A stretch of DNA of 64,000 nucleotides, from positions 186,001-250,000 of the forward strand of contig NZ_WITC01000036.1 in the NCBI RefSeq assembly GCF_009601505.1, written 5' to 3'. The notes under the pieces are model-generated. The model saw only the letters and a program-made list of their open reading frames with translations, was not told the DNA's origin and did not search any database. Of the stretch, positions 1,359 through 52,938 are shown in pieces. Within the stretch, counting starts at the first letter, position 1, and each line of letters begins with the position of its first letter. The translations under genes were made by a program, and so were the position numbers. The DNA is from Sinorhizobium terangae. GTDB taxonomy: Bacteria > Pseudomonadota > Alphaproteobacteria > Rhizobiales > Rhizobiaceae.

Positions 1359-1359
1359 T

Positions 1360-1587: not shown

Positions 1588-2877
<1,290 letters not shown>

Positions 2878-2887
2878 ACGAAAGGCC

Positions 2888-2921
2888 GGGGCGCGCGGCA
2901 TCCCTGCCCGTCGCGCGCCTC
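2888..2921 (+). terminator. Hairpin between aceA and the next gene (attenuator-like)
   Basis: GGCGCGCG at 2890-2897 pairs with CGCGCGCC at 2912-2919, extendable to 10 pairs with one G-U. No U-tract follows, so it may partly terminate or stabilise the aceA message rather than end it. Confidence 0.4.
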
Positions 2922-2998
2922 GGAAAACAACAGAACCTCGAACGGAAAGCGGAACCAATATCCCGCATCCGGCTCTTACCTTTGAAGGAGCAACACCA

Positions 2999-3238: not shown

Positions 3239-3351
3239 TGTTCGGTCTCGCGGCTGTCGTGCTCGTCCTAACGCTCTCTGGCATGTACTGGCGCGACACC
3301 CTGTCACGCAAGCGTCGGATTCCCGTGGCCGTCACTCGCGACAGGGGCTGA
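3238..3351 (+). CDS. 37-residue single-span membrane microprotein
   Basis: Its ATG overlaps the TGA of the preceding 79-residue gene (TGATG at 3236-3240), a typical translational-coupling arrangement. The product begins MFGLAAVVLVLTLSGMYW, a single hydrophobic segment of about 17 residues, followed by a basic tail (RDTLSRKRRIPVAVTRDRG). A terminator-like hairpin follows 25 nt after the stop. It is too short for routine gene calling. Function unknown; a small inner-membrane protein made with its upstream partner is the likeliest reading. Confidence 0.55.
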   Translation: MFGLAAVVLVLTLSGMYWRDTLSRKRRIPVAVTRDRG

Positions 3352-3376
3352 AAGATAGCCTTCCATCCAGAGGAGG

Positions 3377-3405
3377 TCATCGGCCGACCGCAAATCGGCC
3401 GGTGA
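3377..3405. terminator. Hairpin between convergent genes
   Basis: CGGCCGA at 3381-3387 and TCGGCCG at 3395-3401 form a stem around a 7-nt loop, extended by TCA/TGA with one mismatch. It sits between the convergent ends of the aceA group and the lysR gene and could serve both. Confidence 0.5.
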
Positions 3406-3416
3406 CCGTTTCGGTC

Positions 3417-4298: not shown

Positions 4299-4385
4299 GG
4301 GTGAAAGACATATGGGGAAATGGGATGTATGTAAAACAGTTTTGAATGCATAAAAAGGAGATGCCCAAAAACGAGGAGCATCACC

Positions 4386-4592
4386 ATGGACATGATGGCA
4401 ATGGCCGTTCTATTCGATATGGCCTCAAGAAATCGCCGCTGGGACGAACCGTTCGAGCCCCGACGGCCAAGCCGCACGAAGGACTTCACGAAGGAGCTAT
4501 TTGCGGCGTTCTTCCGCAGGCGACGGCCCGCCGAGACGCACGAGGACACGGCCGACACCTGTCCGGCCCTTTGCGCAAGCAGCATGAAATGA
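4386..4592 (+). CDS. Small hypothetical protein (68 aa), divergent from lysR
   Basis: It starts MDMMAMAVLFDMASRNRRWDE behind a GAGGAG ribosome site 7 nt upstream. It contains a basic patch (FFRRRRP) and two cysteines near the C-terminus (TCPALCASS). The stop is followed immediately by a 13-bp hairpin terminator, which together with the ribosome site argues for a real transcript. No family is recognised. Divergent placement suggests control by the LysR regulator. A longer ATG at 4346 is in another frame and has no better support. Confidence 0.5.
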   Translation: MDMMAMAVLFDMASRNRRWDEPFEPRRPSRTKDFTKELFAAFFRRRRPAETHEDTADTCPALCASSMK

Positions 4593-4623
4593 GAACGCCG
4601 CGCATCCCTGATGCGCGGCGTTC
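4593..4623 (+). terminator. Strong hairpin terminator
   Basis: GAACGCCGCGCAT (4593-4605) pairs perfectly with ATGCGCGGCGTTC (4611-4623) around a 5-nt loop, and the T-rich AGTTCTT follows. It begins on the base after the stop of the 68-residue gene and faces the end of the chemoreceptor gene, so it may act in both directions. Confidence 0.75.
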
Positions 4624-4675
4624 AGTTCTTCGGCGCCACGCGGCGTGCCCGCAGGACCTTTAACGTTGGCGTCCG

Positions 4676-7210
4676 CTACGCTGCGCGATAGACCTGACCG
4701 GAACCGGTCTCCGGCTCCAGCCGGAATTGCTCGACGAGCATCATCAGCGTATCTGCCTGGCTTGCGAGTGCGCGGCTGGTGGCCGTCGCTTCCTCGACCA
4801 TCGAGGCATTCTGCTGGGTCATCTGATCCATCTGGTTGACGGAGCCGTTGACCTCGTTCAGCGCCGCCGCCTGGTCGCGGCTGGCCGTCGCGATCATGTC
4901 CACATGCTGGCTGACGGAAACGATCTGAGCGCTGATCGAAGCGAGCACCGCGCCGGTCTCCTTGACGAGATGCGAGCCGGAATTGACCTCCTCGGTCGAC
5001 TTGTTGATGAGCCCCTTGATTTCCCGAGCCGCCTCGGCGGAACGCTGCGCCAGTTCCCGGACCTCCTGCGCGACGACGGCAAAGCCCTTGCCCGCCTCAC
5101 CGGCTCGTGCAGCCTCAATGCCGGCGTTCAAGGCCAGCAGATTGGTCTGGAAGGCGATGTCGTCGATGACCTCGATGATCTGCTCGATCTGGCGTGAAGC
5201 CTCTTCGATGCGTCCCATCGCGGCGATGGCATTGGTAACGACGGTCGCAGAGCTGTCGGCGCTCTTCTTGGTCTGCGAAACGGCGAGGTTCGCCTCGTGC
5301 GCACGCTCGGCCGAGGAACGCACGGTCACCGTGATCTGGTCGACCGCGGCCGCGGTCTCCTCGAGCGAAGCCGCCTGGGCTTCGGTGCGCTTGGAGAGCG
5401 AGTCGGCCGAATGATGCATGTCCGCACCGCTCTGCTGGATTGCCTGGGCGTTCGTTCGGATCTGAGCGAGCGTATCCTGAAGCCGGATGAGCGACCCATT
5501 GAAATCCGTCCGCAACTGCTCGAGCCGGCCGTGGAAGGGCACCTCGATCTGGCGCGATAGGTCGCCTTGCGCCAGACGTCCTAGGCCAGCGGCGAGTTCG
5601 CTGACGGCAAGATCGATCTGCCGGTCGAGTTCACGCTTCTCGGCGTCGTTGCGGCTGCGCTCCGCTTCGGCACGAGACCGCTGCTCTTCGCTTTCTGCCT
5701 CGATGCGCACCTTGGAAAGGGCGTTTTCCTTGAACACGCCGAGGGCACGCGCCATGTCGCCGATTTCGTCGCGCCGTGCGTCGCCGTCGATCGCCGTATC
5801 GAGCGCACCGTCGGCAAGGCGGCGCATCGCGGCGGTAATCTGCCCGATCGGTTTCTTCAGCGTCAGCGTCAGCGCGATTCCGGCGAGCAACGCGATGATG
5901 ACGCCGGCGACGGTCGCAGCAACGGAGATCTGGTTCGCTTCGTCGCGTTCGGTACCGGCGGCGACTTTCTGCTGCTCGGCGAACTCGGTCAGATCGCCCC
6001 AGATCTGATTGATCGATTCACCCGCCGCATTGAACTCGGAATTGCGCTTATCGGAACTCGCGACCAGCGCAACACCATCCTTCTTCATGACGTCGATGAT
6101 CGGAAGGAGCGTGTCCGACGTGGTGCCGAAGAAGCTCATCCCGTTCGCGACTCCGCGCAGCGTCGTCAAATTTGCCTGAACGGCAAGGAACTTATCCAGG
6201 AGCTTTTTGCGATTTTCCTCGGTCGTGCTGCCAAGGAAGGCGGCTGCGGCGATCTGGATGTCGGTGATCGACGTGGATAGCCGGCGCGTCGCCGTCAGCA
6301 CCGATTCGGTGCTCGCGATCTTTTCATCGAGTTCACTGAAGATCTGCGTGGCTTCGCGCATCTTGCCAACGGAGGCGGCTTCGAGGCGGAAGCTCGCCGT
6401 GCGGAAGCTATCGACATACTTCGAAATGCTGCCGAGTGTTTCGGGTCCGACCGGTGCCTTGATCAGCGAGCCGATCTCGCTCGAGGCTGAATTCACGGTG
6501 TCGGCAAGGGACTTTTCGCCCTTCGGCAACAAGGTAAAGATCTCGCGCTGCGTGCGGCCGATCATCGGGAAGCGGTCCCTGACCTGCTTCAGCTTCTCCT
6601 CGACAGTGGTCGCCTTGGCGACCTCGGTGCCGAACTCAGCGAAGAAGCGGCTGGCGCGCAGGAGCTTTTCGGCGTTCCGGAGCATCGTCTTGGCCGCGTT
6701 CTCGTCCTTGCGCACGGCATATTGCAGCCGGTTCGTCTCTTCATTGATCTTCGACTGCTCGGCCACCAGACGTTCCAGATTGGCCGTCGTGGCCGCACGC
6801 AGTTCCTGCTCGCCGACATGCAGCGTCCAAAGTCCCTCGATACGCGCCTCGATATCGCTGGTCGCAGCGATCGCAGCGGTCAGCTCTTCCTGTCCATTCT
6901 GGCCGGCAACCTGTTCGGCGGTTTCAGCGAGGACGTCCTTCTGGGCGGCGATCGTAGAGCGAACGGCATCGCGGCTTTCCTCGGTCGTCTTGTAGAGGAA
7001 GTTGTTCATGCCCGCATAGACGTCCTTGAAGCCGCTCAGCGTTTGCAGGACGCTATTTGAAATCTCCATGCGCCCCTGCAGCAGACCCGATGCGTAGAGG
7101 CCAGTGATGCCGACAGCCGAGATGCTGACGACAAACGGCAGGATGAAGAAAAGAACCTTCGTCTGAATCTTGAAACGGGCAAGAATTCTATCGATGAACA
7201 TTGAAAACAC
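4676..7210 (-). CDS. mcpZ: Methyl-accepting chemotaxis protein, McpZ-like
   Basis: This 844-residue transmembrane chemoreceptor has TM1 at about residues 18-38, a very large, mostly helical periplasmic region (about 40-428) and TM2 at about 429-451. A HAMP domain follows (452-505), then a second HAMP-like segment near 540-580. The cytoplasmic signalling domain carries the conserved hairpin tip DDIAFQTNLLALNAGIEAAR at about 683-702. There is no C-terminal CheR-tether pentapeptide. S. meliloti McpZ, which I recall as encoded near aceA, has a similarly long periplasmic module of stacked helical bundles. The name therefore rests on position and architecture rather than alignment. Ligand unknown. 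Confidence 0.93.
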   Translation of the reverse strand: MFSMFIDRILARFKIQTKVLFFILPFVVSISAVGITGLYASGLLQGRMEISNSVLQTLSGFKDVYAGMNNFLYKTTEESRDAVRSTIAAQKDVLAETAEQVAGQNGQEELTAAIAATSDIEARIEGLWTLHVGEQELRAATTANLERLVAEQSKINEETNRLQYAVRKDENAAKTMLRNAEKLLRASRFFAEFGTEVAKATTVEEKLKQVRDRFPMIGRTQREIFTLLPKGEKSLADTVNSASSEIGSLIKAPVGPETLGSISKYVDSFRTASFRLEAASVGKMREATQIFSELDEKIASTESVLTATRRLSTSITDIQIAAAAFLGSTTEENRKKLLDKFLAVQANLTTLRGVANGMSFFGTTSDTLLPIIDVMKKDGVALVASSDKRNSEFNAAGESINQIWGDLTEFAEQQKVAAGTERDEANQISVAATVAGVIIALLAGIALTLTLKKPIGQITAAMRRLADGALDTAIDGDARRDEIGDMARALGVFKENALSKVRIEAESEEQRSRAEAERSRNDAEKRELDRQIDLAVSELAAGLGRLAQGDLSRQIEVPFHGRLEQLRTDFNGSLIRLQDTLAQIRTNAQAIQQSGADMHHSADSLSKRTEAQAASLEETAAAVDQITVTVRSSAERAHEANLAVSQTKKSADSSATVVTNAIAAMGRIEEASRQIEQIIEVIDDIAFQTNLLALNAGIEAARAGEAGKGFAVVAQEVRELAQRSAEAAREIKGLINKSTEEVNSGSHLVKETGAVLASISAQIVSVSQHVDMIATASRDQAAALNEVNGSVNQMDQMTQQNASMVEEATATSRALASQADTLMMLVEQFRLEPETGSGQVYRAA

Positions 7211-12268: not shown

Positions 12269-13744
12269 ATGAGCAGCCAGATCATTCCCGTCGACCCGTT
12301 TGATTATGTGGTGTTCGGGGGCACCGGCGATCTTGCGGAGCGCAAGCTTCTGCCCGCGCTCTATCACCGGCAGATCGAAGGTCAATTCAGCGAACCGACG
12401 CGGATCATCGGCGCATCACGTGCGGCACTGACCCATGAAGAATACCGCACGTTCGCGACCGACGCCTTGAGAGAGCATCTGAAACAGGGCGAATTCAACG
12501 AAGCGGAAGTGGCGAAATTCACAGCCCGACTCTACTACGTCTCGGTCGACGCCAAGTCCGACCAGGGCTGGGACGATCTGAAGAAGATCCTCGAAGAAGG
12601 AAAGGATCGCATCCGCGCCTTCTATCTCGCCGTGGGCCCGGCGATCTTCGGCGACATTTCGGAAAAGATCCGCGACAACAAGCTCATCACCAAGAACACC
12701 CGGATCGTCGTCGAAAAACCGATCGGCCGCGACCTCGCCACGGCGACGGAACTCAACGACACGATCGGCAAGGTGTTCCGCGAAGAGCAGATCTTCCGTA
12801 TCGATCACTACCTCGGCAAGGAGACGGTGCAGAACCTCATGGCCCTGCGCTTTGCCAACGCGCTTTACGAGCCGCTGTGGAACTCGGCGCATATCGACCA
12901 CGTGCAGATCACCGTTTCGGAGTCCGTCGGCCTCGAAAATCGCGCAGGCTACTACGACAAGGCGGGTGCGCTGCGCGACATGGTGCAGAACCACATTCTG
13001 CAACTCGTCTGTTTCGTCGCCATGGAAGCGCCGACCTCCATGGACGCGGAGGCCGTGCGCGACGAAAAGCTCAAGGTGCTTCGCGCGCTGAAGCCGATCA
13101 CCGCCGCCAATGTCGAGCAGGTGACGGTTCGCGGCCAGTATCGTGCCGGCGCATCCGCCGGCGGTCCGGTCAAGGGCTATCTCGAGGAACTGGAAGGCGG
13201 CGTTTCCAACACCGAAACCTTCGTCGCGATCAAGGCCGAGGTCAGCAACTGGCGCTGGGCTGGCGTGCCCTTCTATATTCGCACCGGCAAGCGCATGGCG
13301 GGCCGCATGTCGGAGATCGTCATTACCTTCAAGCAGATCCCGCACTCGATCTTCGATCACAGTGCCGGACGCATTTCGGCCAACCAGTTGATGATCCGTC
13401 TGCAGCCGAACGAAGGCGTCAAGCAGTCGCTGATGATCAAGGACCCGGGACCGGGCGGGATGCGGTTGCGCAATGTTTCGCTCGACATGAGCTTCGCGGA
13501 GGCCTTCGCCGTGCGCAACGCCGATGCTTATGAACGGCTACTGCTCGATGTCGTCCGCAACAACCAGACGCTGTTCGTGCGCCGCGACGAGGTGGAAGCC
13601 GCATGGCAATGGATCGATCCGATCCTGAAGGCATGGGAAACGACCGGGCAGCAGGTGCAGGGCTACACGGCCGGCACCTGGGGGCCGAGCCAGTCCATCG
13701 CGCTCATTGAGCGCGATGGACGCACCTGGAATGATACGATCTAG
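12269..13744 (+). CDS. zwf: Glucose-6-phosphate 1-dehydrogenase
   Basis: This 491-residue enzyme oxidises glucose-6-phosphate to 6-phosphogluconolactone with NAD(P). The N-terminal nucleotide motif is VVFGGTGDLAERKLLPALY, with the usual G6PD spacing, and VEKPIGRD lies near residue 149. The active-site signature RIDHYLGKETVQN is present at about 177-189. The length is standard. It is the first gene of zwf-pgl, with edd following after a short repeat-bearing gap, so it feeds the Entner-Doudoroff pathway that rhizobia use for hexoses. A 98-nt AT-richer leader probably holds the promoter. Confidence 0.97.
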   Translation: MSSQIIPVDPFDYVVFGGTGDLAERKLLPALYHRQIEGQFSEPTRIIGASRAALTHEEYRTFATDALREHLKQGEFNEAEVAKFTARLYYVSVDAKSDQGWDDLKKILEEGKDRIRAFYLAVGPAIFGDISEKIRDNKLITKNTRIVVEKPIGRDLATATELNDTIGKVFREEQIFRIDHYLGKETVQNLMALRFANALYEPLWNSAHIDHVQITVSESVGLENRAGYYDKAGALRDMVQNHILQLVCFVAMEAPTSMDAEAVRDEKLKVLRALKPITAANVEQVTVRGQYRAGASAGGPVKGYLEELEGGVSNTETFVAIKAEVSNWRWAGVPFYIRTGKRMAGRMSEIVITFKQIPHSIFDHSAGRISANQLMIRLQPNEGVKQSLMIKDPGPGGMRLRNVSLDMSFAEAFAVRNADAYERLLLDVVRNNQTLFVRRDEVEAAWQWIDPILKAWETTGQQVQGYTAGTWGPSQSIALIERDGRTWNDTI

Positions 13745-13753
13745 GATCGACCG

Positions 13754-14452
13754 ATGAGCGCTTCCCTGCACATATTCGAAAACGGAACGGCATTGGCGGA
13801 GGGCCTTGCGGATGCGGTCAGCGCCAAGCTCGCCGCGGCGATTGAGGCCCGCGGCGCTGCGAGCATCGCGGTCTCCGGCGGAACGACGCCGAAGGCATTC
13901 TTCCAGGCACTGTCGCGGCGCGAGATCGACTGGACCAAGGTGACCGTCACCCTTGTCGACGAGCGGTTGGTGCCGCCGGAAAACGAGCGCTCCAACCATG
14001 GGCTGGTCGCCGCCAACCTGCTGCAGAACAAGGCGGCAGCAGCAAGATTCCTGCCGCTTTACCACGCAGCAGCCACGGCCGAGGACGCCGCAGCGACGGC
14101 AAGCCGTTCGATGGCGGCGATCGGCACGCCCTTCGATGTGGTTATCCTCGGGATGGGAACGGATGGACACACCGCCTCGTTCTTTCCGGGAGGTACGCGT
14201 CTCAAAGAGGCGATCGATCCGGCGACGCCACGCGGCGTGATCACGATGGAAGCGGACGGCGCGGGCGAGACGCGCCTGACATTCACCTTTTCCAGTCTTG
14301 AGGATGCCGGGCTACTCGTCCTGCATATCGAAGGCGACGGCAAGAAGGAGGTTCTTGCCCGAGCGGAGGCGCCCGGCGACGAGGCAGAGATGCCGATCCG
14401 CGCGATGTTGCGGCGCGCAACATCGCCGCTGCAGATCTACTGGGCGCCGTAA
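13754..14452 (+). CDS. pgl: 6-phosphogluconolactonase
   Basis: The 232-residue protein matches DevB-type 6-phosphogluconolactonase, which hydrolyses the lactone made by Zwf. Family signatures are IAVSGGTTPKAFFQALS near residues 36-52, VTLVDERLVPPENERSNHGL near 65-84 and GMGTDGHTASFFPG near 133-146. It starts 9 nt after zwf and is clearly co-transcribed. Length and motif order are complete. Confidence 0.96.
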   Translation: MSASLHIFENGTALAEGLADAVSAKLAAAIEARGAASIAVSGGTTPKAFFQALSRREIDWTKVTVTLVDERLVPPENERSNHGLVAANLLQNKAAAARFLPLYHAAATAEDAAATASRSMAAIGTPFDVVILGMGTDGHTASFFPGGTRLKEAIDPATPRGVITMEADGAGETRLTFTFSSLEDAGLLVLHIEGDGKKEVLARAEAPGDEAEMPIRAMLRRATSPLQIYWAP

Positions 14453-14581
14453 CAGGGGCGAGTGCCCTTCGGGGAACCGCCGAGGTAGATGCGCCCAGAA
14501 CCAGAGCTTTCCTTGCGCGTTCTCCCGAGTGCGCAGGTCGTGTTGAGTGATTTATCCTCGCGATCGAACTGAGGCTAGATT

Positions 14582-14635
14582 ACACAACAATTCAAACTGT
14601 TACAGCCGCCGATGCGGTGTCGCACGGCCGCTGTA
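14582..14635. repeat. Palindromic repeat between pgl and edd
   Basis: An ACAATTCAAACTGT lead is followed by a palindrome with arms TACAGCCG and CGGCCGCTGTA. It is a diverged copy of the CTACAGCG family, lying between genes of one pathway, so it may affect edd expression relative to zwf-pgl. Confidence 0.65.
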
Positions 14636-14692
14636 GACCGATGACAGGATGAAGACAGGGGCCCTCCTCACGGCTCCGGAACAGGATGTATC

Positions 14693-16510
14693 ATGTCCGC
14701 CGATTCCCGCGTTGCCGCCATCACCGCCCGCATTGTCGAGCGTTCCAAACCCCAGCGCGAAGCCTATCTCGATCGCATCCGTAGTGCTGCGGCAAACGGG
14801 CCACATCGCAGCGTTCTCGGCTGCGGCAACCTTGCACATGGCTTTGCTGTCTGTTCGCCCGCCGAGAAGACGGCGCTCGCGGGTGACCGTGTCCCGAATC
14901 TCGGCATCATCACCTCCTACAACGACATGCTCTCGGCGCATCAGCCCTTTGAGACCTATCCGGCGCTGATCCGCGAGGCCGCCCGCGAGGCTGGCGGCGT
15001 GGCGCAAGTTGCCGGCGGCGTGCCGGCGATGTGCGACGGCGTCACCCAAGGCCAGCCCGGCATGGAGCTGTCGCTTTTCTCACGCGACCTCATCGCGATG
15101 GCCGCGGGCGTCGGGCTGTCGCACAACATGTTCGACGCCGCTGTCTATCTCGGCGTCTGCGACAAGATCGTGCCTGGCCTCGTGATCGCCGCATTGACAT
15201 TCGGCCACCTGCCCGCGGTCTTCGTCCCCGCCGGGCCGATGACCTCGGGCCTGCCGAATGACGAGAAGGCCAAGGTCCGCCAGCTCTTTGCCGAGGGCAA
15301 GGTCGGTCGCGACGAATTGCTCGAGGCTGAATCCAAGTCGTATCACGGCCCCGGCACCTGTACCTTCTACGGCACCGCCAACTCCAACCAGATGCTGATG
15401 GAGATCATGGGCTTCCACCTGCCTGGCGCCTCCTTCATCAATCCCGGCACGCCGCTGCGCGACGCGCTGACGAAGGAAGCAGCCAAACGGGCGCTCGCCA
15501 TCACCGCCATGGGTAACGAATTCACCCCCGCCGGCGAGATGATCGATGAACGATCGATCGTCAACGGCGTCGTTGGCCTGCACGCTACGGGCGGCTCGAC
15601 CAACCACACCATGCACCTCGTTGCCATGGCGCGGGCTGCGGGCATCCTGCTCACCTGGCAGGACATTTCCGAACTTTCCGACATCGTGCCGCTTCTGGCC
15701 CGCGTCTATCCGAACGGGCTCGCGGACGTGAACCATTTCCACGCCGCCGGCGGCATGGGCTTCCTGATCGGCCAGTTGCTCAAGAACGGATTGCTGCACG
15801 ACGACGTCCGGACGGTGTTCGGCCAGGGTCTCGACGCCTATGCCATCGACGTCAAGCTCGGCGCCAACGGCGGCGTTCACCGCGAGCCGGCGCCGCAACA
15901 GAGCGCCGATCCGAAGGTGCTGGCGACGATCGATCAACCGTTCCAGCACACCGGCGGGCTCAAGATGCTCGCCGGCAATCTCGGCAAGGCGGTCATCAAG
16001 ATTTCGGCCGTCAAGCCGGATCGCCATGTCATCGAAGCGCCCGCGAAGATCTTCCACGACCAGGCGGAGCTCAACGCCGCCTTCAAGGCGGGCAAGCTTG
16101 AGGGCGATTTTGTCGCCGTGGTCCGCTTTCAGGGTCCGAAGGCCAATGGCATGCCGGAACTGCACAAGCTGACGACCGTGCTCGGCATCCTGCAGGACCG
16201 TGGCCAGAAGGTGGCCATCCTGACCGACGGCCGCATGTCAGGCGCGTCCGGCAAGGTCCCGGCCGCCATCCATGTCACCCCGGAAGCAAAGGACGGCGGA
16301 CCGATCGCGCGCATTCAGGAAGGTGACATCATCCGTATCGACGCGATTGCCGGAACGATCGAGGTACTGGTCGAAGACATTGCGCTGAAGACGCGCGTGC
16401 CGGCCCATATCGACCTCTCCGACAACGAATTCGGCATGGGCCGCGAGCTTTTCGCGCCGTTCCGCCGCATCGCTGGCGCGGCCGATCATGGGGCTAGCGT
16501 CCTCTTCTAG
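14693..16510 (+). CDS. edd: Phosphogluconate dehydratase
   Basis: This 605-residue dehydratase converts 6-phosphogluconate to 2-keto-3-deoxy-6-phosphogluconate. It belongs to the IlvD/Edd Fe-S family. Cysteines in expected contexts are [19 protein letters not shown] and [16 protein letters not shown]. The [17 protein letters not shown] and [17 protein letters not shown] motifs are also present. The start has an AGGA ribosome site. The length agrees with Edd (about 600) rather than IlvD. It completes zwf-pgl-edd; no eda aldolase gene is in the window. Confidence 0.97.
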
Positions 16511-16708
16511 AGCGCCGTGCGTTCAAATGAACGCACCAAGGACGCTCTAGCACTTTGATTCGAGAGCATCTTATCCGCTTTCCATTTGAAAGCGGGATGC
16601 TCTACTGCATGATTCCCTAAATCGGAATCGATTTAAGGATAAAATCATGCAGCAATTCAACGTGCTACAGCGACCTTTGCGCGTCCAATTGGACGCGCGG
16701 CGCTGTAG
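16508..16708. repeat. Block of four consecutive palindromes after edd
   Basis: Four units follow one another. The first is an AGAGCG...CGCTCT hairpin (16508-16550), which overlaps the edd stop. The second is AGAGCATC...GATGCTCT with inner CCGCTTTC/GAAAGCGG (16563-16603). The third is GCATGATT...AATCATGC around TTAAATCG-like arms (16607-16650). The fourth is CTACAGCG...CGCTGTAG (16665-16708). All belong to rhizobial palindrome families seen elsewhere in the window. They may also terminate edd transcription. Confidence 0.8.
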
Positions 16709-16756
16709 TGACTCGGCGAACGTCCGGACTTGCCCACCAAATAATGGCCGCCCTCG

Positions 16757-17122
16757 CTACGGGAGCGGCCCGGGAGGCATGTCGTTTTGGCCGTCGTAAC
16801 GCTCGATCTCGAGTGTGAACACGTCCACCCCCTCGATGCAGCGGGCGTTGAGCGAAACGCGGTCGCCCGGATAGCCGCTTCGCATGATCGCGGTGCCACA
16901 GGTGGGGCAGAAGTGATGGCCTCCGTTGACATCGCGCCAGATGTAGCTCGACAGGCGGCGCTTTTCGGTGATCAGCCTGACAGCGGCGGCATCCACCTTC
17001 CAATGAAGGAAACCGGAACGCCGGCACGTCGAGCAGTTGCATTCGACCAATCGCGATAACTCAGCGTCGACCTCGAGAGAGATGTCGCCGCAATGACAGG
17101 AAAGGCGATAGGGTCGCTGCAT
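16757..17122 (-). CDS. GFA/CENP-V domain zinc protein
   Basis: The 121-residue protein carries the three cysteine motifs of the glutathione-dependent formaldehyde-activating (GFA) family: CHCG at residues 9-12, CNCSTC at 29-34 and CPTCGT at 72-77. These bind two zinc ions in the beta-fold. Members are small cytoplasmic proteins often annotated as aldehyde-detoxifying, although most have no proven activity. It stands alone between edd and the PilZ-like gene, with repeats on its 3' side, and has only a weak ribosome site. Confidence 0.85.
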   Translation of the reverse strand: MQRPYRLSCHCGDISLEVDAELSRLVECNCSTCRRSGFLHWKVDAAAVRLITEKRRLSSYIWRDVNGGHHFCPTCGTAIMRSGYPGDRVSLNARCIEGVDVFTLEIERYDGQNDMPPGPLP

Positions 17123-17240
17123 GGCGGTTCTCTGACCTGATCTACAGTCGTCACAGCTTGAGTCTCGACGACGCAGGCAACCCCGTCAAGACGGAGCGCA
17201 AATGCAGGCAAGAACGCCGGACGTGGCGCGCTTTCACTTT

Positions 17241-17639
17241 TCAGCGGTAGATATCGAGCGTGCGGTTGCGGTGGTTCGGATGCGTGCTGTAGACGAAAAT
17301 CCGGTTCAGGTCGCGATCGGTCAAAAGCCGCAGGAAGCGGGCTTCAATGATATTGTTGGCATGCACGCGCTTGAGCAGGCAGCCGATCAAGGGGATGCGT
17401 GCGCTCGGGATATCGAGATAGAAGTTCCGCGGCAGCTGGAACTGCGTCATGATGCCTATGAGGGCGCTGCTTTTGGAAAGCTTGATGATCTCGCAGCGGC
17501 GAGACGAGAGGTGCTGCATTCCTTTCTCGGTGAATTCGATGCGCGCCTCGTTGCGAGTGTCCTCCATTGGGAAGTTCGCTTCCCGATCATACATAAAGGA
17601 TTCTTCCTTGTTGAGGAAGTGCTGGGCCGCGCCGCTCAT
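17241..17639 (-). CDS. Divergent PilZ-like domain protein
   Basis: The start at 17639 (MSGAAQHFLNKEE) is preferred over upstream ATGs because AAAGG lies about 8-10 nt before it. That gives 132 residues. From about residue 42, RRCEIIKLSKSSALIGI and the following FYLDIP...GCLLKRVHANNIIEARF resemble the RxxxR - (D/N)xSxxG - beta-barrel pattern of rhizobial PilZ domains. The canonical (D/N)xSxxG is degenerate (KLSKSSA), so c-di-GMP binding is doubtful. The gene is monocistronic, next to aglK. An alternative is a PilZ-fold protein that has lost ligand binding. Confidence 0.55.
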   Translation of the reverse strand: MSGAAQHFLNKEESFMYDREANFPMEDTRNEARIEFTEKGMQHLSSRRCEIIKLSKSSALIGIMTQFQLPRNFYLDIPSARIPLIGCLLKRVHANNIIEARFLRLLTDRDLNRIFVYSTHPNHRNRTLDIYR

Positions 17640-17884
17640 AGAATTCGCCTTTCGCATTTCAATCTGCGGCGACGCTAGCCCATGAAATTTAACAGAGAGT
17701 TTGACTTGCCAAACACCTGTGGAAAACTCGCCCGGCAACGCCGGAGCGGTGCAATATGGTTAAATCCATCTAACCGAAGCGGAGGAGAAAGCGCAGCCAT
17801 TTGTCCGCTTGCGCCGATCGCCGGTGACTCCTTGAACTTGCGCATTCCGGACGGAAAACCGCGCACACTTTTCCTCATCCCGCT

Positions 17885-18973
17885 CTAGGCGCGATAGCTG
17901 CGTCCTTCGGCATCGAAGAGGTGAAGCTTTGCCTTGTCGGCGGTAAAGCGCACCTTGTCTCCACGTTTGACCTGCGGGATGCCGGGCATCTTCGCGATGA
18001 GCGGCTCGTTCTCGACCAGTCCCTCGATATAGAGCAGCGTCACTTCACCGAGCGCCTCGACGATCGAAACCGTTCCTTCGAACAGGAAATCTTCGGACTG
18101 CGTCGCCTGCAGGTCTTCCGGACGCACGCCGAAACTCGCCGTCTTTCCTTTCTCGGATGCGTCCGTGGCCATGTCGAGCGTCACCGACTTGCCGCCCGCG
18201 AGCGTCACGGTCGTCTGCGCGCCGGTGGCCGAGATCGTCGAAGGGATGATGTTCATCGCCGGCGAGCCGATGAAGCGGGCGACGAAGAGGTTCGCCGGGC
18301 GCTCATAAAGTTCGAGCGGCGCACCGACCTGCTCGATATGGCCTGCCGAAAGCACGACGATGCGGTCAGCAAGTGTCATCGCCTCCACCTGGTCGTGCGT
18401 GACATAGATCATTGTTGTATCGGCCATCTGCTCATTGAGCTTGGCGATCTCGATCCGCGTGGCGACGCGCAGGGCCGCATCGAGGTTGGAAAGCGGCTCG
18501 TCGAAGAGGAAGACCTTGGGATTTCGGCAAATCGCCCGTCCGATCGCCACGCGCTGACGCTGCCCGCCGGAGAGCGCCTTTGGCAGGCGGTCGAGATATT
18601 GGGTTAGTTGGAGGATTTCCGCCGCCGAGCGCACGCGGCGGTCGATCTCCTCCTTCGACTCCTTGGCGATCCGCATGCCGAAAGCCATGTTGTCGTAGAC
18701 CGTCATGTGCGGATAGAGCGCGTAGGACTGGAACACCATGGCGATGCCGCGCTTCGATGGCGGCACGTCGTTGACCCGGTCGCCATCGATGAACATGTCA
18801 CCGCCGGTTATCTGCTCAAGGCCGGCGATCATCCTGAGCAGCGTCGATTTCCCGCAGCCCGATGGCCCGACGAAGACGATGAACTCACCCTGTTTGATGT
18901 CGAGGTTGATGCCATGAATGACATCAACGGCCCCATAGGACTTGCGGATATCTTTAAGCAGCAGGCCTGTCAT
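17885..18973 (-). CDS. aglK: Alpha-glucoside ABC transporter, ATP-binding subunit
   Basis: This 362-residue ATPase powers alpha-glucoside import. Walker A is GPSGCGKST, the signature is LSGGQRQRVAIGRAI, Walker B is VFLFDEPLSNLDA and the switch histidine lies in YVTHDQVEAMTLADRIVVL. The C-terminal third is the TOBE/regulatory region of MalK/UgpC-type ATPases. The start at 18973 (MTGLLLKDIRKS) has a GGGGAGGG ribosome site 4-6 nt upstream, so the 10-residue longer frame to 19003 is not used. It is the last gene of aglEFGAK. Confidence 0.95.
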   Translation of the reverse strand: MTGLLLKDIRKSYGAVDVIHGINLDIKQGEFIVFVGPSGCGKSTLLRMIAGLEQITGGDMFIDGDRVNDVPPSKRGIAMVFQSYALYPHMTVYDNMAFGMRIAKESKEEIDRRVRSAAEILQLTQYLDRLPKALSGGQRQRVAIGRAICRNPKVFLFDEPLSNLDAALRVATRIEIAKLNEQMADTTMIYVTHDQVEAMTLADRIVVLSAGHIEQVGAPLELYERPANLFVARFIGSPAMNIIPSTISATGAQTTVTLAGGKSVTLDMATDASEKGKTASFGVRPEDLQATQSEDFLFEGTVSIVEALGEVTLLYIEGLVENEPLIAKMPGIPQVKRGDKVRFTADKAKLHLFDAEGRSYRA

Positions 18974-46222: not shown

Positions 46223-47194
46223 TCACTGCTGGAAGAGGCGCAGGATGTTCTCGGAGTTGGTGTTGGCGATCGAAAGGGCCTGGATGCCGAGTTGCTGCTG
46301 CGTCTGCAGAGCCTTGAGCCGCGTCGATTCCTCGTTCATGTCCGCATCGACGAGACGTCCGACGCCTTTGTCGATCACGTCCATCAGGTTCGCGACAAAG
46401 CTTTCCTGCATGTCGATGCGGGTGGTGATCGCTCCGAGCGTTGAGGCGGAATCGGTGAGCTTGCTCAACATTTTGTCGACAACGCGGATCATGTCGTCCA
46501 GCTGCGCGCTCGTCGTCGCAGCGGTGAGCTTGATCTCGGTGCTGCCGGCGACAGGCGTGGCCGGGGGCGCGACGATGAGGTGAAACAGGCGCGCCGTGCC
46601 CGATGGCGTCGCCTGCAACTGATCAGCGTCATAGCTGTTGGTCAGCAGCCCACGCGTGGCATCGGCCGAATCGATCAGCATCGACTGAGCCGTGTCGAAG
46701 TCGAGCGTCGTCACGGAAACATTGCCGTTACCGCTGCGGTTGAAGGACGCGACGATCGACTTGGTCCCGACCGCCGCGGTGTTGGAATTGTAAAGCCAGT
46801 TCTCGCCGGAGAAAGACGCGGACTGCGCTGCGGAAAGCAGCTGATTCTTGAGCTCGGTGATTTCCTTGTCAATTTTCAGCTTGTCGACGCCCGGCTCGCG
46901 CGCGGCAACGAGCTTCGCCTTGATCTCGCTGATCACGTCGATCGACGTCTCCATCGCGGCATAGGCCGTATCGACCTTGGCGGCGCCAAGGCCAAGTGCG
47001 TCCTGGACGGTGGAAAGCGCCGCGTTGTCGGACCGCATGGTCGTTGCGATCGACCAGTAGGCCGCGTTGTCGCCGGCGGTCTGGACGCGGTAGCCGGACG
47101 AAATCCGGTTCTGCACCTCGGCCATGTTGCTGTTGATCGAGCGCAATGTCTGGAGCGCCGCCATCGCGGCGGCATTGGTCATGATGCTGGTCAT
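46223..47194 (-). CDS. Flagellin (divergent third copy)
   Basis: The 323-residue filament subunit keeps the conserved D0/D1 ends (TLRSINSNMAEVQNRISSGYRV, NEESTRLKALQTQQQLGIQALSIANTNSENILRLF). The middle differs from the other two copies: LFHLIVAPPATPVAGSTEIKLTAAT replaces the YTDTDGTTTVTLSYNLLE region. It ends with an extra Gln-Gln. It has its own 357-nt upstream region. By position it corresponds to FlaD or FlaC of S. meliloti; which one cannot be decided. Confidence 0.93.
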   Translation of the reverse strand: MTSIMTNAAAMAALQTLRSINSNMAEVQNRISSGYRVQTAGDNAAYWSIATTMRSDNAALSTVQDALGLGAAKVDTAYAAMETSIDVISEIKAKLVAAREPGVDKLKIDKEITELKNQLLSAAQSASFSGENWLYNSNTAAVGTKSIVASFNRSGNGNVSVTTLDFDTAQSMLIDSADATRGLLTNSYDADQLQATPSGTARLFHLIVAPPATPVAGSTEIKLTAATTSAQLDDMIRVVDKMLSKLTDSASTLGAITTRIDMQESFVANLMDVIDKGVGRLVDADMNEESTRLKALQTQQQLGIQALSIANTNSENILRLFQQ

Positions 47195-47410
47195 AGATCG
47201 TTTGCCCTGAATGATTTTTTCAAGAACATTCCGGAGTGCACCGGCAGCGATGGGACCAGCGTCATGCGAACCGCCTCTAATTTGCCCTGAGAGACGGCCC
47301 CTCGCTCTTAACGAAGATGTAACGATTTGATGGTTAACAAATAGTTAACGGGCTTTACGAGGCAGTAATAAAAATAAACGAAAATAAACAAAGATTGAGG
47401 AATACCTAAA

Positions 47411-47452
47411 TACAGCGCCGCGCGTCTTAACGGACGCGGCAGGGACACTGCA
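47411..47452. repeat. Palindromic repeat, TACAGCGCCGCGCG family
   Basis: TACAGCGCCGCGCGTC opens an imperfect palindrome closing with GGACGCGGCAGGGACACTGCA around TTAAC. It matches the 7864 and 28942 copies. Confidence 0.7.
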
Positions 47453-47488
47453 ACCCTTTGTATTGCTGCTGGACAGGCAAGAAAGCGG

Positions 47489-47521
47489 AAAGCCGCGCTG
47501 CTCGTCGAGCAGCGCGGCTTT
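47489..47521 (-). terminator. Strong hairpin terminator of the second flagellin gene
   Basis: AAAGCCGCGCTGCTC (47489-47503) pairs perfectly with GAGCAGCGCGGCTTT (47507-47521) around a 3-nt loop, starting 30 nt after the flagellin stop. The minus-strand side continues CCGCTTTCTT. Confidence 0.75.
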
Positions 47522-47551
47522 CTTGTGCGATTAAGCTGTAATCGGCTCCGA

Positions 47552-48496
47552 TTAACGGAACAGCGACAGGATGTTCTGCGAGTTGGTGTTGGCGATCGAG
47601 AGCGACTGGATGCCGAGCTGCTGTTGCGTCTGCAGGGCCTTGAGGCGCGTCGATTCCTCGTTCATGTCGGCATCGACCAGGCGCCCGACACCCTTCTCGA
47701 TCGAGTCCATCAGATCGGCAACGAAGTCGTTCTGCATGGTGACGCGGCTGTTGAGTGCGCCGAGGTCCGAAGCGGCATCGGTCATGGTCAGCAGCGCTGC
47801 GTCGACGCCGGAGATGGCTTCCGCCAGATCGCCAACAGTCATGCTGGTGATGTCCATCTCGAGCAGGTTGTAGCTCAAGGTGACCGTCGTCGTGCCGTCC
47901 GTGTCGGTGTATTCGAGGTCGCTCGAGAGCAGGCCAGAGCCGTTGGTGACATAATCGCCAGACGCATCGACTTCGATGAGCGAGCTCTTGGTCGTGTCGA
48001 ACTGCAGCGTGGTCAGGCTGACATTGCCATTGGCATCGCGGTTGAACGAGCCGACGATCGACTTGGTGCCGGCGGCATTGTTCGGGTCGTTGTAGACCCA
48101 GTTTTCGCCGGAGAACGAAGCGGACTTCGCGATGCTGATCAGCTGGTTCTGAAGCTCGGTGATTTCCTTCTGGATCTTGCCCTTGTCGACGCCCGGCTCA
48201 GAGGCAGCAACGAGCTTCGCCTTGATTTCGTCGACGACGTCGATCGAGGATTCCATCGCGGTGTAGGCGACGTCGGTCTTGGCGGCGCCGAGGCCGAGGG
48301 CATCCTGAACGGTCGAAAGCGCCTTGTTGTCCGAACGCATCGTGGTCGCGATCGACCAGTAAGCGGCGTTGTCCTGCGCGGCACCGACGCGGTAGCCGGA
48401 GGAGACCCGGTCCTGAGTCGTTTCCATCGAGGAATTGATCGAGCGCAGGGTTGCGAGCGCCGTCATTGCGGCGGTGTTCGTCATGATGCTTGTCAT
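47552..48496 (-). CDS. flaB: Flagellin (FlaB position)
   Basis: The 314-residue flagellin is about 93% identical by eye to the neighbour at 48778, so the two arose by tandem duplication or are kept alike by conversion. The N-terminal MTSIMTNTAAMTALATLRS and C-terminal QQQLGIQSLSIANTNSQNILSLFR helices are standard. The variable centre is only about 100 residues. AAGGGGC lies 9 nt before the ATG. Name given by position after the first flagellin gene. Confidence 0.93.
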   Translation of the reverse strand: MTSIMTNTAAMTALATLRSINSSMETTQDRVSSGYRVGAAQDNAAYWSIATTMRSDNKALSTVQDALGLGAAKTDVAYTAMESSIDVVDEIKAKLVAASEPGVDKGKIQKEITELQNQLISIAKSASFSGENWVYNDPNNAAGTKSIVGSFNRDANGNVSLTTLQFDTTKSSLIEVDASGDYVTNGSGLLSSDLEYTDTDGTTTVTLSYNLLEMDITSMTVGDLAEAISGVDAALLTMTDAASDLGALNSRVTMQNDFVADLMDSIEKGVGRLVDADMNEESTRLKALQTQQQLGIQSLSIANTNSQNILSLFR

Positions 48497-48708
48497 TGGC
48501 TGAGTGCCCCTTGGTGACAGTTGAAAGAAAAAGGGACATTCCGGGATTACCGGGAAACGGCGGTCAGCTTCATGCCTGCTAACGCGTTAATCTTGTTGGT
48601 TAACCCGCCGTCTCGATGGCCACAGCAAACACCAACATAGTTAACGAAGGCTGAAGCGAATTCCCGATTCCGTCAGATTTTTGAGAAGCCATCGACCAGA
48701 AAGGCAGA

Positions 48709-48735
48709 AGGCCGCGTTCTTGCGAAACGCGGCCT
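48709..48735 (-). terminator. Hairpin terminator of the first flagellin gene
   Basis: AGGCCGCGTT (48709-48718) pairs with AACGCGGCCT (48726-48735) around a 7-nt loop, 43 nt after the flagellin stop. Confidence 0.65.
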
Positions 48736-48777
48736 CGATTTGCTGAAGTCAGGTACGGGTAATCACCCGCCCATTGC

Positions 48778-49722
48778 TTAGCGGAACAGCGACAGGATGT
48801 TCTGCGAGTTGCTGTTGGCGATCGACAGCGACTGGATGCCGAGCTGCTGCTGCGTCTGCAGGGCCTTGAGGCGTGTCGATTCCTCGTTCATGTCGGCATC
48901 GACGAGCTTGCCGACACCCTTCTCGATCGAGTCCATCAGATCGGCCACGAAGTCCTTCTGCATGTCGACGCGGCTATTGAGCGCACCGAGATCGGAGGCT
49001 GCATCGGTCATCGTCTGCAGGGCGGCATCGACACCGGAGATGGCCTCGGCCAGGTCACCAGTGGTCATGCTGCTGATGTCCATCTCGAGCAGGTTGTAGC
49101 TCAAGGTGACCGTCGTCGTGCCATCCGTGTCGGTGTATTCGAGGTCACTCGAAAGCAGGCCCGAACCATTGGTGACGTAGGCACCGGCCGAGTCGACTTC
49201 GATGAGCGAGCTCTTGGTCGTATCGAACTGCAGCGTGGTCAGGCTGACATTGCCGCTAGCGTCGCGGTTGAACGAACCGACGATCGACTTGGTGCCGGCA
49301 GCATTGTTGTTGTCGTTGTAGACCCAGTTTTCGCCCGAGAACGAAGCGGACTTCGCGATGCTGACGAGCTGGTTCTGCAGTTCCTTGATTTCCTTCTGGA
49401 TCTTGCCCTTGTCGACGCCCGGCTCAGAGGCAGCAACGAGCTTTGCCTTGATTTCGTCGACGACGTCGATCGAGGACTTCATCGCGGTGTAGGCAACGTC
49501 CGTCTTGGCGGCGCCGAGGCCGAGTGCGTCCTGAACGGTCGAAAGCGCCTTGTTGTCCGAACGCATCGTGGTCGCGATCGACCAATAGGCGGCGTTGTCA
49601 GAGGCCGAACCAACGCGATAGCCGGAGGAAATGCGGTCCTGGGTCGTTTCCATCGAGGAATTGATCGAGCGCAGGGTCGCAATTGCGGCCATTGCCGAAG
49701 AGTTCGTCATGATGCTGGTCAT
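48778..49722 (-). CDS. flaA: Flagellin (FlaA position)
   Basis: The 314-residue flagellin is the first of three. D0/D1 regions are complete (MTSIMTNSSAMAAIATLRS; ADMNEESTRLKALQTQQQLG). AAGGGACA precedes the ATG. In S. meliloti the main flagellin FlaA is indispensable for motility, and the neighbouring position and own promoter region suggest the same role. The protein is about 80 residues shorter than S. meliloti FlaA as I recall it, mainly in the surface-exposed centre. Confidence 0.94.
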   Translation of the reverse strand: MTSIMTNSSAMAAIATLRSINSSMETTQDRISSGYRVGSASDNAAYWSIATTMRSDNKALSTVQDALGLGAAKTDVAYTAMKSSIDVVDEIKAKLVAASEPGVDKGKIQKEIKELQNQLVSIAKSASFSGENWVYNDNNNAAGTKSIVGSFNRDASGNVSLTTLQFDTTKSSLIEVDSAGAYVTNGSGLLSSDLEYTDTDGTTTVTLSYNLLEMDISSMTTGDLAEAISGVDAALQTMTDAASDLGALNSRVDMQKDFVADLMDSIEKGVGKLVDADMNEESTRLKALQTQQQLGIQSLSIANSNSQNILSLFR

Positions 49723-50057
49723 GTGAGTTGTCCCTTTTTTACTGAATACGGTTGGGGGACATACCGGACTGCGTACACTACCGGTGATGACGGACCGGCT
49801 TCATGCCTCTCGGTTCCAACAAACATCCTTTGGAAGAAACCAAACCCGTCATGTGGAGACGAATATCGAGACCAATGCTTGCAAATTCATTAAATGCGGG
49901 TGCCTGTTCCGGATGGCTCGAATCATGCTTAACGCACAATTAAATGACTGACCTCATGTAGTTTTTTCGTCGCAGCACATCTCCTTGACAGGTGTAAGCC
50001 AACAATCTTGGAGTCACGCCTGAGGCAAGGTCCGGCAGCGACAATGTCCCCTGAAAC
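49723..50057. other. 335-nt divergent promoter region, flaA versus GT41 gene
   Basis: Holds the leader and promoter of the first flagellin gene and of the divergent glycosyltransferase gene. It is relatively AT-rich around 49880-49960. No repeat or small gene is seen. Confidence 0.55.
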
Positions 50058-52037
50058 ATGTCGATCGAATCAGGACTGGAGCGGCAGGACGCCGACCGCT
50101 GTCCGCCCTATGCGACGGAGCCGCACTTGAACGCGCATGCCCTCTTCACGACCGCCTCCCGGCAATATCAGAAAGGCCAGTACACCGAGGCGCTCAACCA
50201 GCTTAACCACCTGATGAACATCAGCCGGGAGGCCAAGACATTCGTCCTCCTGGCGAAGGTCCTCTTGAAACTTGGCTTCAAGACCGATGCGGCGCGCGCC
50301 TATCAATTGGCCGGAGAGGAGAAGGGTTCGCGTTCGGAACATTATTTGACCGAAGCGATGAAGCTGCACTTTGCGTGCGGCAACGAGGACGAGGCGCTCA
50401 GCATCGGTCTTCCCCTTCTCGAAAAGGCGAAGACCGACCCGGACATCGCATTCATCATCGCATCCATCTTCTTGAAGCGGGACCAGAAGGAAATTCTCGG
50501 CCTGTTCAAGGCGCCGCTTTCCACCAGCGCAAATATCCAGCACCAGTCTCTCGCCTTCAAGCTTCTGACGGCCGATATCGACGATGCGCAGGATCGCGAT
50601 GCAGTCGTCAATCTCTTCCGGAAAAATCCGAAGAGCACGGTGTTGCGGGCGGCCTATCTCGTCTTCGCCCGCGAGGCTAACGACTACGTAGAGATCGAGA
50701 AGTACTATCCGGACGTCCAGAAAGCCCTGGATGCGGGGAAATACCAGATCCTAGCTGCCGAGTCCCCTTACTATCACGTTACGTGGTGCGGCGATGAAAA
50801 GCTTAACCGATGGGCCGGCGCAAGGAGCCAACCTTTTGCTTCCGCAATTACCGAGGCGCGACGCAACATGCCGCATCAATGGGCGAAGAAGATCCGCATC
50901 GGATATCTTTCGGCGGACTTCTGGGATCAGCATGCAACGATGAAGTTGCTTCAGGCAGTATTGGAACTACACGATCCGGAAAGATTCGAGGTCACGCTCT
51001 TTTGCCATACGAAGGAGAGCAACCTGGCCCGCGATCGCGGCAACCGCGGCAACTGGGGACGAATTGTCCGCATCAACGATATGTCCGATGAGGAGGCGGC
51101 GGCTGTCATCCGTTCAGAAGGCATCGATATCCTGGTCGACCTCAAGGGCCATACGCTCGACAACCGGCTGAAGATCCTTAACCATCAGGCTGCACCGGTT
51201 CAGGTTTCCTGGCTCGGCTTTCCCGGAACCGCGACAAACATCGATGTCGACTATGTTATCGGTGACCCGTATGTGCTGCCTGAGGGAAGCCAGGATCATT
51301 ACTACGAAAAGTTCTGCCGACTGCCGGAAACCTATCAGCCGAACGATCCCTATCACCGCCCACGCGCGTACGGCATTGCGCGAAAGGACCTCGGCCTTCC
51401 GGACGACGCGTTCGTCTTTGCGTCGTTTAACGCCAGCAGAAAGATCTCTCTGCAGACGATCAATCTCTGGATCGAAATCCTTCGCCGAACACCGGACAGC
51501 GTTTTGTGGCTCATGTGCAAGAGGGACGCGCAGGCCAACATTCTGCGCAAGTTCCAGAGCGGCGGTATCGCTTCGAAACGCATCATCCTGTGCAGCAAGA
51601 CGGCCTATACACAGCATATCAACCGTCTGCCCGCGGCCGATCTCGGCCTCGACACCTATCCTTATAACGGCCACACGACCACGTCGGAACAGCTCTGGGC
51701 AGGCTTGCCGGTGCTGACCTTCAAGGGTACCAACTTCGCCTCGCGCGTAAGCGAAAGCCTGCTCAACGCGATCGGGCTTCCAGAACTCGTGACCGCCGGC
51801 GCCGAAGCCTATGTCGCCGAAGCGGTCGCACTCTATGAGAACCGCGAGAAAATCGCCGAATACAGGAAGACGCTCGAGGAGAACCGCTTCCGCATGCCGC
51901 TGTTCGACGCGGAGCGCTTCTGCCGACACCTGGAGCGCGGCTATGAGATGATGGTGGATCGCGCCAAGCAGAAGCTGCCACCGGATCACATCGATGTTCC
52001 CGCACTTCCGCCGCGCGAGGGTTCCTTCGAGCGATAG
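50058..52037 (+). CDS. TPR-containing OGT-like glycosyltransferase (GT41/SPINDLY type)
   Basis: The 659-residue protein has a helical, TPR-like N-terminus (about residues 25-230). A GT41 catalytic region follows (about 278-640). O-GlcNAc-transferase motifs are KIRIGYLSADF (278-288), ILVDLKGHT (358-366), PVQVSWLGFPGT (380-391), FASFNASRKIS (454-464), YPYNGHTTTSEQLWAGLPV (534-552) and FASRVSESLL (560-569). The histidine of NGHTT and lysine of SRKIS correspond to key OGT residues. It lies inside the flagellar cluster, divergent from the first flagellin gene, so flagellin is a likely acceptor. Cytoplasmic. The sugar donor is inferred to be a UDP-sugar. Confidence 0.9.
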   Translation: MSIESGLERQDADRCPPYATEPHLNAHALFTTASRQYQKGQYTEALNQLNHLMNISREAKTFVLLAKVLLKLGFKTDAARAYQLAGEEKGSRSEHYLTEAMKLHFACGNEDEALSIGLPLLEKAKTDPDIAFIIASIFLKRDQKEILGLFKAPLSTSANIQHQSLAFKLLTADIDDAQDRDAVVNLFRKNPKSTVLRAAYLVFAREANDYVEIEKYYPDVQKALDAGKYQILAAESPYYHVTWCGDEKLNRWAGARSQPFASAITEARRNMPHQWAKKIRIGYLSADFWDQHATMKLLQAVLELHDPERFEVTLFCHTKESNLARDRGNRGNWGRIVRINDMSDEEAAAVIRSEGIDILVDLKGHTLDNRLKILNHQAAPVQVSWLGFPGTATNIDVDYVIGDPYVLPEGSQDHYYEKFCRLPETYQPNDPYHRPRAYGIARKDLGLPDDAFVFASFNASRKISLQTINLWIEILRRTPDSVLWLMCKRDAQANILRKFQSGGIASKRIILCSKTAYTQHINRLPAADLGLDTYPYNGHTTTSEQLWAGLPVLTFKGTNFASRVSESLLNAIGLPELVTAGAEAYVAEAVALYENREKIAEYRKTLEENRFRMPLFDAERFCRHLERGYEMMVDRAKQKLPPDHIDVPALPPREGSFER

Positions 52038-52200: not shown

Positions 52201-52938
52201 TCAGGTGAACGACCGCACCAGGCTGCCGACCAGCAGGTTCCAGCCGTCGATCAGCACGAAGAAGAGGATCTTGAACGGCAGCGAGATAGCCGTCGGCGGC
52301 AGCATCATCATGCCCATCGCCATGGTGATGGTCGCGACTATTAGGTCGATCACCAGGAACGGTAGCATGATCAGGAAGCCGATTTCGAAGCCGCGGCGGA
52401 TCTCCGAGATCATGAAGGCCGGCACCACGGCCCTGAGATCGACCTTGTCTTCGACCACGACGGTCTGGCCCTTTTCCTTGGCGATATCGATGAAGAGTTG
52501 CAGATCCTTGTCGCGCGTATTGGCAAGCATGAACTCGCGGAATGGCTCTGCTACGCGCGGCATGGCCTCGGTTTCCGAGATTTCATTCTTGAGGAGCGGA
52601 TCTATCCCCTCGCGCCAGGCGCGATCGAAGGTCGGCGCCATCACATAGAAGGTCATGAACAGGGCAAGCGACACCATGATCATGTTGGACGGCGTGGTTG
52701 CTAGTCCCATGCCCGACCGCAGGATCGCGAAGGCGATGACGAAGCGCGGGAAGCTCGTCACCATAATCAGAATGCCCGGTGCCACCGATAGAACGGTGAT
52801 GAGACCGAAGGTGCGGATGATCCACGATGCAACGGAACCGTCGACCGGCGTGTTCAGAATGTCGGCGGGAAAACTCTGCGCCCCGGCAATTCCCGACATC
52901 GCCAGCATGGCGATTATGAAGGCAGCAATCCGGAGCAT
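52201..52938 (-). CDS. fliP: Flagellar export gate protein FliP
   Basis: The 245-residue protein has a cleavable signal peptide (LRIAAFIIAMLAMSGIAGAQ). The FliP signatures VAPGILIMVTSFPRFVIAFAILRSGMG and RRGFEIGFLIMLPFLVIDLIVATITMAMGMMMLPP follow. It forms the central pore of the export gate with FliQ and FliR. It is the last gene of the basal-body operon, 48 nt after fliL. Confidence 0.96.
   Translation of the reverse strand: MLRIAAFIIAMLAMSGIAGAQSFPADILNTPVDGSVASWIIRTFGLITVLSVAPGILIMVTSFPRFVIAFAILRSGMGLATTPSNMIMVSLALFMTFYVMAPTFDRAWREGIDPLLKNEISETEAMPRVAEPFREFMLANTRDKDLQLFIDIAKEKGQTVVVEDKVDLRAVVPAFMISEIRRGFEIGFLIMLPFLVIDLIVATITMAMGMMMLPPTAISLPFKILFFVLIDGWNLLVGSLVRSFT

Follow-up and report, generated by a model that had tools for sequence, protein, structure and literature searches.

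A single gene lying between fliP and the flagellin genes of Sinorhizobium terangae probably encodes a cytoplasmic flagellin glycosyltransferase, with a TPR-like domain that would hold flagellin, a UDP-sugar as donor and modification before export. It lies in the window, that is, the whole 64,000-nucleotide stretch of contig NZ_WITC01000036.1 analysed here (Table 1). In the proposed mechanism, the TPR-like superhelix would hold newly made flagellin monomers, the UDP-sugar would donate its sugar, most likely GlcNAc or a hexose, for the catalytic domain to attach to residues exposed on the short flagellin centre, and the modified protein would then leave through the flagellar secretion system. 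Since relatives keep the transferase in the same place beside flagellins, it probably sugar-coats the flagellar filament; flagellin as the substrate, the donor, the O-linkage and the effect on filament or motility are what we infer.

Table 1. Features of the transferase locus in the window
Feature	Window coordinates	Strand	Basis or remark
Flagellin 3 (323 aa), proposed substrate	46223..47194	-	Flagellin_N and Flagellin_C
Flagellin 2 (314 aa), proposed substrate	47552..48496	-	Flagellin_N and Flagellin_C
Flagellin 1 (flaA-like, 314 aa), proposed substrate	48778..49722	-	Divergent neighbour; Flagellin_N and Flagellin_C
19-bp block	50015..50033	+	24 bp upstream of transferase start; possible promoter or operator element
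TPR-like and GT41 glycosyltransferase gene	50058..52037	+	659-aa open reading frame
All-helical TPR-like domain, residues 21-225	50118..50732	+	AlphaFold2 model; sub-threshold TPR-type Pfam match; proposed flagellin-binding part
GT41 catalytic domain, residues 278-636	50889..51965	+	Alignments to human OGT
fliP, converging neighbour	52201..52938	-	TIGR01103

The reading frame opens with ATG and contains no internal stops. The preliminary description of this DNA had recognised a complete GT41 catalytic region preceded by an N-terminal TPR-like module, and both elements were borne out. The motifs DLKGHT, WLGFPGT, NGHTT and FASRV all fall within the translation, and the profile Glyco_transf_41 (PF13844) matches it in two stretches (225.5 bits, the cut-off being 25; E = 1.3e-66), so that the protein is a GT41 member by the curated Pfam cut-off. 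At the N-terminus, a TPR-type Pfam match remains below threshold (ANAPC3, E = 2.2e-4; 21.9 bits versus 27.2), and the AlphaFold2 model places 12 helices in this region, followed from residue 279 by the catalytic part, in which strands and helices alternate. The model (mean pLDDT 83.9, pTM 0.79) was built on alignment A1 of 41 hand-chosen transferase sequences, which left out L112 and G010 (both with a stop within the alignment) as well as L041, L102 and L104. A GT41 family search of the source genome (100% complete, 0.89% contamination) found no further copy, making this the sole GT41 found, and dN/dS values of 0.06-0.16 against six orthologs indicate purifying selection.

The predicted model thus contains a TPR-like superhelix followed by a GT-B fold of the OGT type. 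Foldseek ranked OGT structures first in the PDB, those of fly, Xanthomonas (XcOGT) and human, at E about 1e-29, with SPINDLY lower in the list. Among these first matches, TM scores were about 0.62-0.64 by query length and rmsd was 9-12.5 Å over the whole chain, so the two domains of the model are arranged otherwise than in the solved OGTs. In the alignment, H292, K462, H520, R523, H539, T540 and T541 correspond to human OGT H558, K842, H901, R904, H920, T921 and T922, whereas donor-site K898 is replaced by Y517 and D925 by E544; of the nine catalytic or donor-binding positions compared, seven are kept. The offset of the human numbering fits the title of a D554N structure. Among the matches listed in a class survey of 385 genomes, those outside Rhizobiaceae cover the catalytic domain and few reach partly into the N-terminal domain, which belongs to a Rhizobiaceae lineage in the surveys made.

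The gene was correctly placed by the preliminary description inside the flagellar cluster and divergent from flaA: it sits between fliP and three minus-strand flagellin genes (46223-49722), its start separated by 335 bp from the head-to-head flagellin 1. Profile matches identify fliP, fliL, motB and motC; the names flgH, motE, flgI, flgA, flgG, fliE, flgC, flgE and rem were assigned on our own reading. The 19-bp block upstream of the transferase, which may act as a promoter or operator element, has one copy in the window, is identical in all 11 Sinorhizobium loci aligned and is recognisable in Ensifer. A promoter motif common to the transferase and the flagellins was also sought, and no convincing shared element emerged.

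Full-length orthologs (83-100% identity) were found in 12 of 33 Sinorhizobium genomes, the copy in G010 being interrupted by a stop within the alignment, and in all 12 the gene lies between flaA and fliP (L028-L033, L065-L069 and the window). Six of these genomes are the named loci L028-L033; named relatives with 93-96% identity are Ensifer sp. IC4062, Sinorhizobium sp. 6-70 and 8-89, and S. psoraleae. The same position is occupied in 15 of 15 named loci (L028-L042, 62-96% identity), whereas the weaker named loci of Rhizobium paknamense and Agrobacterium vitis (39%) have a different gene order. The A. vitis locus carries three consecutive GT41 genes (L044:6038-11922) and that of R. paknamense a single 1245-aa frame with apparently two GT41 units (L043:7920-11654); at both loci, EAL/GGDEF and alcohol dehydrogenase genes lie upstream of these GT41 genes.

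The other 21 Sinorhizobium genomes have flagellin genes and no ortholog, indicating that the transferase is dispensable for the flagellum as such. Thirteen carry only a different GT41 (36-39% identity over the catalytic domain), six none, one (70% complete) a fragment of the different GT41, and one a weak TPR match only. No GT41 was present at the flagellin locus in the 15 genomes of the 21 whose locus was read, and fliP adjoins the first flagellin in all 11 of those stretches that reach fliP. The different GT41 (L051-L063) has, in the two loci analysed with Pfam (L061:8098-10194 with 805-6720 and 13199-17953, and L053:9838-14222), giant ALTTAQ-repeat frames (PF20080, up to 77 stretches) and a UDP-galactopyranose mutase gene as neighbours. 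Such surroundings point to a second GT41 that acts on a repetitive substrate of its own; our literature search returned no paper on ALTTAQ.

In the family search, 114 of 394 Rhizobiaceae genomes gave matches at E 0.001 or better. Of the best 28 loci outside Sinorhizobium, 26 have flaA adjoining the transferase and 19 contain fliP. One exception, L102, ends about 450 bases past the transferase on the flaA side; the other, L112, is unlinked, and its re-reading as L214 (12 kb of a 41-kb contig) disclosed neither flagellin nor fliP near the transferase. Several of the Ensifer (g71) genomes are apparently the same strains as the named Ensifer loci and are not independent. The linkage to flaA persists across genera down to about 45-50% identity. 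In eight genomes (L107/L222 and, from genera g18 and g97, L121-L127, re-read as L216-L221 and L223), flaA adjoins the transferase and fliP is absent from the stretch read or 5.6 kb away, which favours flaA rather than the export gene as the partner.

Forty further, lower-scoring Rhizobiaceae regions (20 by family-search rank and 20 hand-picked lower down) included four in the flagellin slot and 36 elsewhere. The unlinked homologs are 37-53% identical and mostly full-length; Pfam analysis of three regions (L174, L182 and L192), whose homologs are full-length and 45-49% identical, identified the adjacent genes as znuA-type zinc uptake, cobW, GH43 or aldo/keto reductase genes. The protein family is thus not restricted to flagellar loci. 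When 29 non-Rhizobiaceae loci were queried with the window flagellins, no flagellin turned up within 1.5 kb of the transferase homolog, a search that would miss distant flagellins. A FastTree phylogeny covered 114 sequences, with 21 of the 29 non-Rhizobiaceae sequences omitted and only the first 660 residues of the two-unit L043 protein used. In it, L112 groups with the 51 linked genes (support 0.77), and the next wider group, with three unlinked genes added, has support of 1.0.

We also considered horizontal transfer of flaA and the transferase as a cassette. FlaA of gene-bearing Sinorhizobium is 76% identical to Ensifer FlaA and 61% to that of Sinorhizobium without the gene; FliP behaves in the opposite way (92% and 96%, respectively), the comparison using the best-scoring flaA copy per genome and FliP from 11 of 15 gene-less loci, mostly partial. 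However, the AU test does not reject a monophyletic Sinorhizobium FlaA (p = 0.173), and the gene-bearing set and Ensifer also fall on one side of a branch in the flanking-gene tree (support 91); accordingly, no horizontal transfer is claimed.

Genus g30 is taken to be Rhizobium because one of its flagellins matches Rhizobium plasmid flagellins at 83-86% among the best 15 records; a second g30 flagellin reaches 71% or less. All 148 g30 genomes contain transferase matches; E is 2.2e-232 or better in 146 of them, and only about 1e-60 in G888 and G891. In each of the 34 g30 loci viewed (seven earlier and 27 new, the latter being the best new matches of the search and thus a non-random sample), flaA adjoins the transferase, with the flagellin of L115 split over two frames. 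Genome G865 contains the flagellin of the R. leguminosarum plasmid pRL31b4 at 100% identity over 909 bases and, by this one plasmid gene, is presumed to be R. leguminosarum; its transferase lies between fliP and flaA (L243).

That the transferase acts on another flagellar or cytoplasmic protein, or regulates flagellar genes, the proximity of flaA being regulatory only, is in our estimate unlikely. Listeria GmaR is a controller of flagellar gene expression, linkage does not name a substrate, and related proteins occur outside the flagellar cluster; against this stand the linkage to flaA, which holds even without an adjacent fliP, and the absence from the transferase of any Pfam DNA-binding domain at E 0.01.

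The FlaA-type flagellins beside the transferase in Sinorhizobium have 313-314 aa, whereas Sinorhizobium without the transferase has flagellins of 389-401 aa or 298-338 aa. The longer class corresponds in size to the flagellins of S. meliloti, a species with an outer D2 domain on its filament (PMC8931119). At two loci of other genera, 361-366 aa flagellins lie beside the transferase (L116 and L119), so that the enzyme is not strictly tied to short flagellins. One Ensifer flagellin copy (L035:5649-6485) is just 256 aa long, without the central part present in its neighbours. The serine/threonine-rich loops invoked in the preliminary description proved non-discriminating: with flagellins below 250 aa dropped, the Ser+Thr fraction of the central region was 0.264 beside the transferase (n = 55) and 0.231 in short flagellins of Sinorhizobium without it (n = 20), a gap too small, among related sequences, to be a substrate signature.

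The O-linkage suggested in that description likewise found no support, as an N-V-S sequon is conserved in the adjoining Sinorhizobium and Ensifer flagellins. With flagellins below 280 aa dropped, all 31 distinct Sinorhizobium flagellins beside the transferase have the motif (at residue 158 in the three of the window), as do 21 of 22 in Ensifer, versus 15 of 52 in Sinorhizobium loci without the gene. As N-glycosyltransferases (NGTs) also belong to GT41, the enzyme could modify Asn-X-Ser/Thr of flagellin as HMW1C does on adhesins. We nevertheless rate this as rather improbable: among flagellins beside the transferase in other genera, only one of 19 has N-V-S and the outer part of seven of 19 lacks any sequon; the transferase is far closer to OGT (E about 1e-56) than to NGT (1e-7); it scores 44.5 bits on the NGT/HMW1C model (NCBIfam NF049992), below the cut-off of 1000; and shared descent may account for the sequon pattern. 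Of the earlier claim that the transferase glycosylates flagellin, the flagellin link is well supported, by the kept linkage to flaA and the single tree group of linked genes; O-linkage is not.

The choice of donor bears on the comparison with FlmG of Caulobacter crescentus, also alphaproteobacterial. According to PMC7591256, FlmG combines an N-terminal TPR domain, through which it binds flagellin, with a C-terminal GT-B domain, modifies flagellin in the cytoplasm, as we propose for the transferase, and requires pseudaminic acid and with it NeuB. The analogy drawn in the preliminary description survives in the architecture but not in the donor, since NeuB (PF03102) has no match in the source genome, and we do not file the transferase in the FlmG class for this reason; a control Caulobacter genome gave a NeuB match, showing that the search works. 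FlmG has 596 aa, the transferase 659 aa. Among Sinorhizobium genomes, NeuB is present in two of the 12 that carry the ortholog and missing from the other 10, against nine of 21 without it; of the 28 genomes surveyed in other genera (seven of them g30), 23 lack it and five have it, and it is missing from 100 of the 148 g30 genomes and present in 48, although 146 carry the transferase. As most gene-bearing genomes lack NeuB, the general donor cannot be a nonulosonic acid. The simplest candidate is UDP-GlcNAc, the transferase being closest to OGT; UDP-hexose, GDP-fucose and CMP-Kdo may also serve.

Transfer of a nonulosonic acid to flagellin in the manner of FlmG is consequently an alternative to which we give a small chance. 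Besides the shared architecture, it would draw on the 48 g30 genomes with NeuB, among them the presumed R. leguminosarum G865, where the published R. leguminosarum phenotype could involve nonulosonic acid. When on one contig, NeuB often lies about 88-130 kb from the linked transferase, at rather even distances (for example, G224, G809, G838, G868, G833 and G907). According to PMC7591256, S. fredii NGR234 makes pseudaminic acid and stays motile when the synthase for it is lost, and Caulobacter flagellin shifted only if FlmG was supplied. The domain of Maf flagellin glycosyltransferases, PF20157, had no match in five of five genomes, nor in any of 14 control genomes. Finally, that the transferase is a passenger with no flagellar role, as its absence from 21 of 33 Sinorhizobium genomes, all 21 with flagellins, might suggest, is hardly credible in view of a slot kept across genera at about 50% identity, its dN/dS values and its presence in 146 of 148 g30 genomes.

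Two further groups of enzymes invite comparison. Flagellin glycosylation islands of Enterobacteriaceae carry GT41 genes by prediction, and these share the flagellar setting and are predicted to use GlcNAc derivatives; according to that source (PMC4875605), however, they reside in variable islands with other sugar genes and most are fused to methyltransferases, whereas the rhizobial transferase is a lone gene in a stable slot. With eukaryotic and Xanthomonas OGTs, the transferase shares the TPR and GT-B architecture and seven of the nine donor or catalytic positions compared, and differs at the K898 and D925 positions, in domain arrangement and in the N-terminal domain of its Rhizobiaceae lineage. 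In the titles and abstract beginnings searched, which cover subscription journals thinly, no flagellin-linked GT41 of Rhizobiaceae was named, and we claim no priority; the available sections of PMC6637203 and PMC7617929 make no mention of "glycosyl" or TPR.

A phenotype that the transferase might explain has been published. Tambalo and colleagues report that R. leguminosarum 3841 and VF39SM have flagellins that run heavier than predicted and stain as glycoproteins; N-X-S/T sequons were looked at, a modified peptide was not found, and the paper does not use the word "glycosyltransferase" (PMC2936354). For filaments of Agrobacterium sp. H13-3, preliminary, unshown evidence of glycosylation is cited (PMC8310070). 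Against the present reading, a review states that other rhizobia lack the polysaccharide sheath seen on the polar flagellum of Azospirillum brasilense (PMC8429497). We consider it evenly balanced whether Rhizobiaceae possess a flagellin glycosyltransferase lineage that works without nonulosonic acids, probably with GlcNAc or hexose, is near-universal in Rhizobium, consists of a single TPR-GT41 gene beside its substrate genes and explains the R. leguminosarum staining.

Collectively, a one-gene candidate beside flaA opens rhizobial flagellin glycosylation to a direct test and provides a FlmG-like enzyme, one that should need no special sugar pathway. Sugars on the filament could, in turn, affect filament assembly, the attachment of flagellotropic phages and recognition by the plant.
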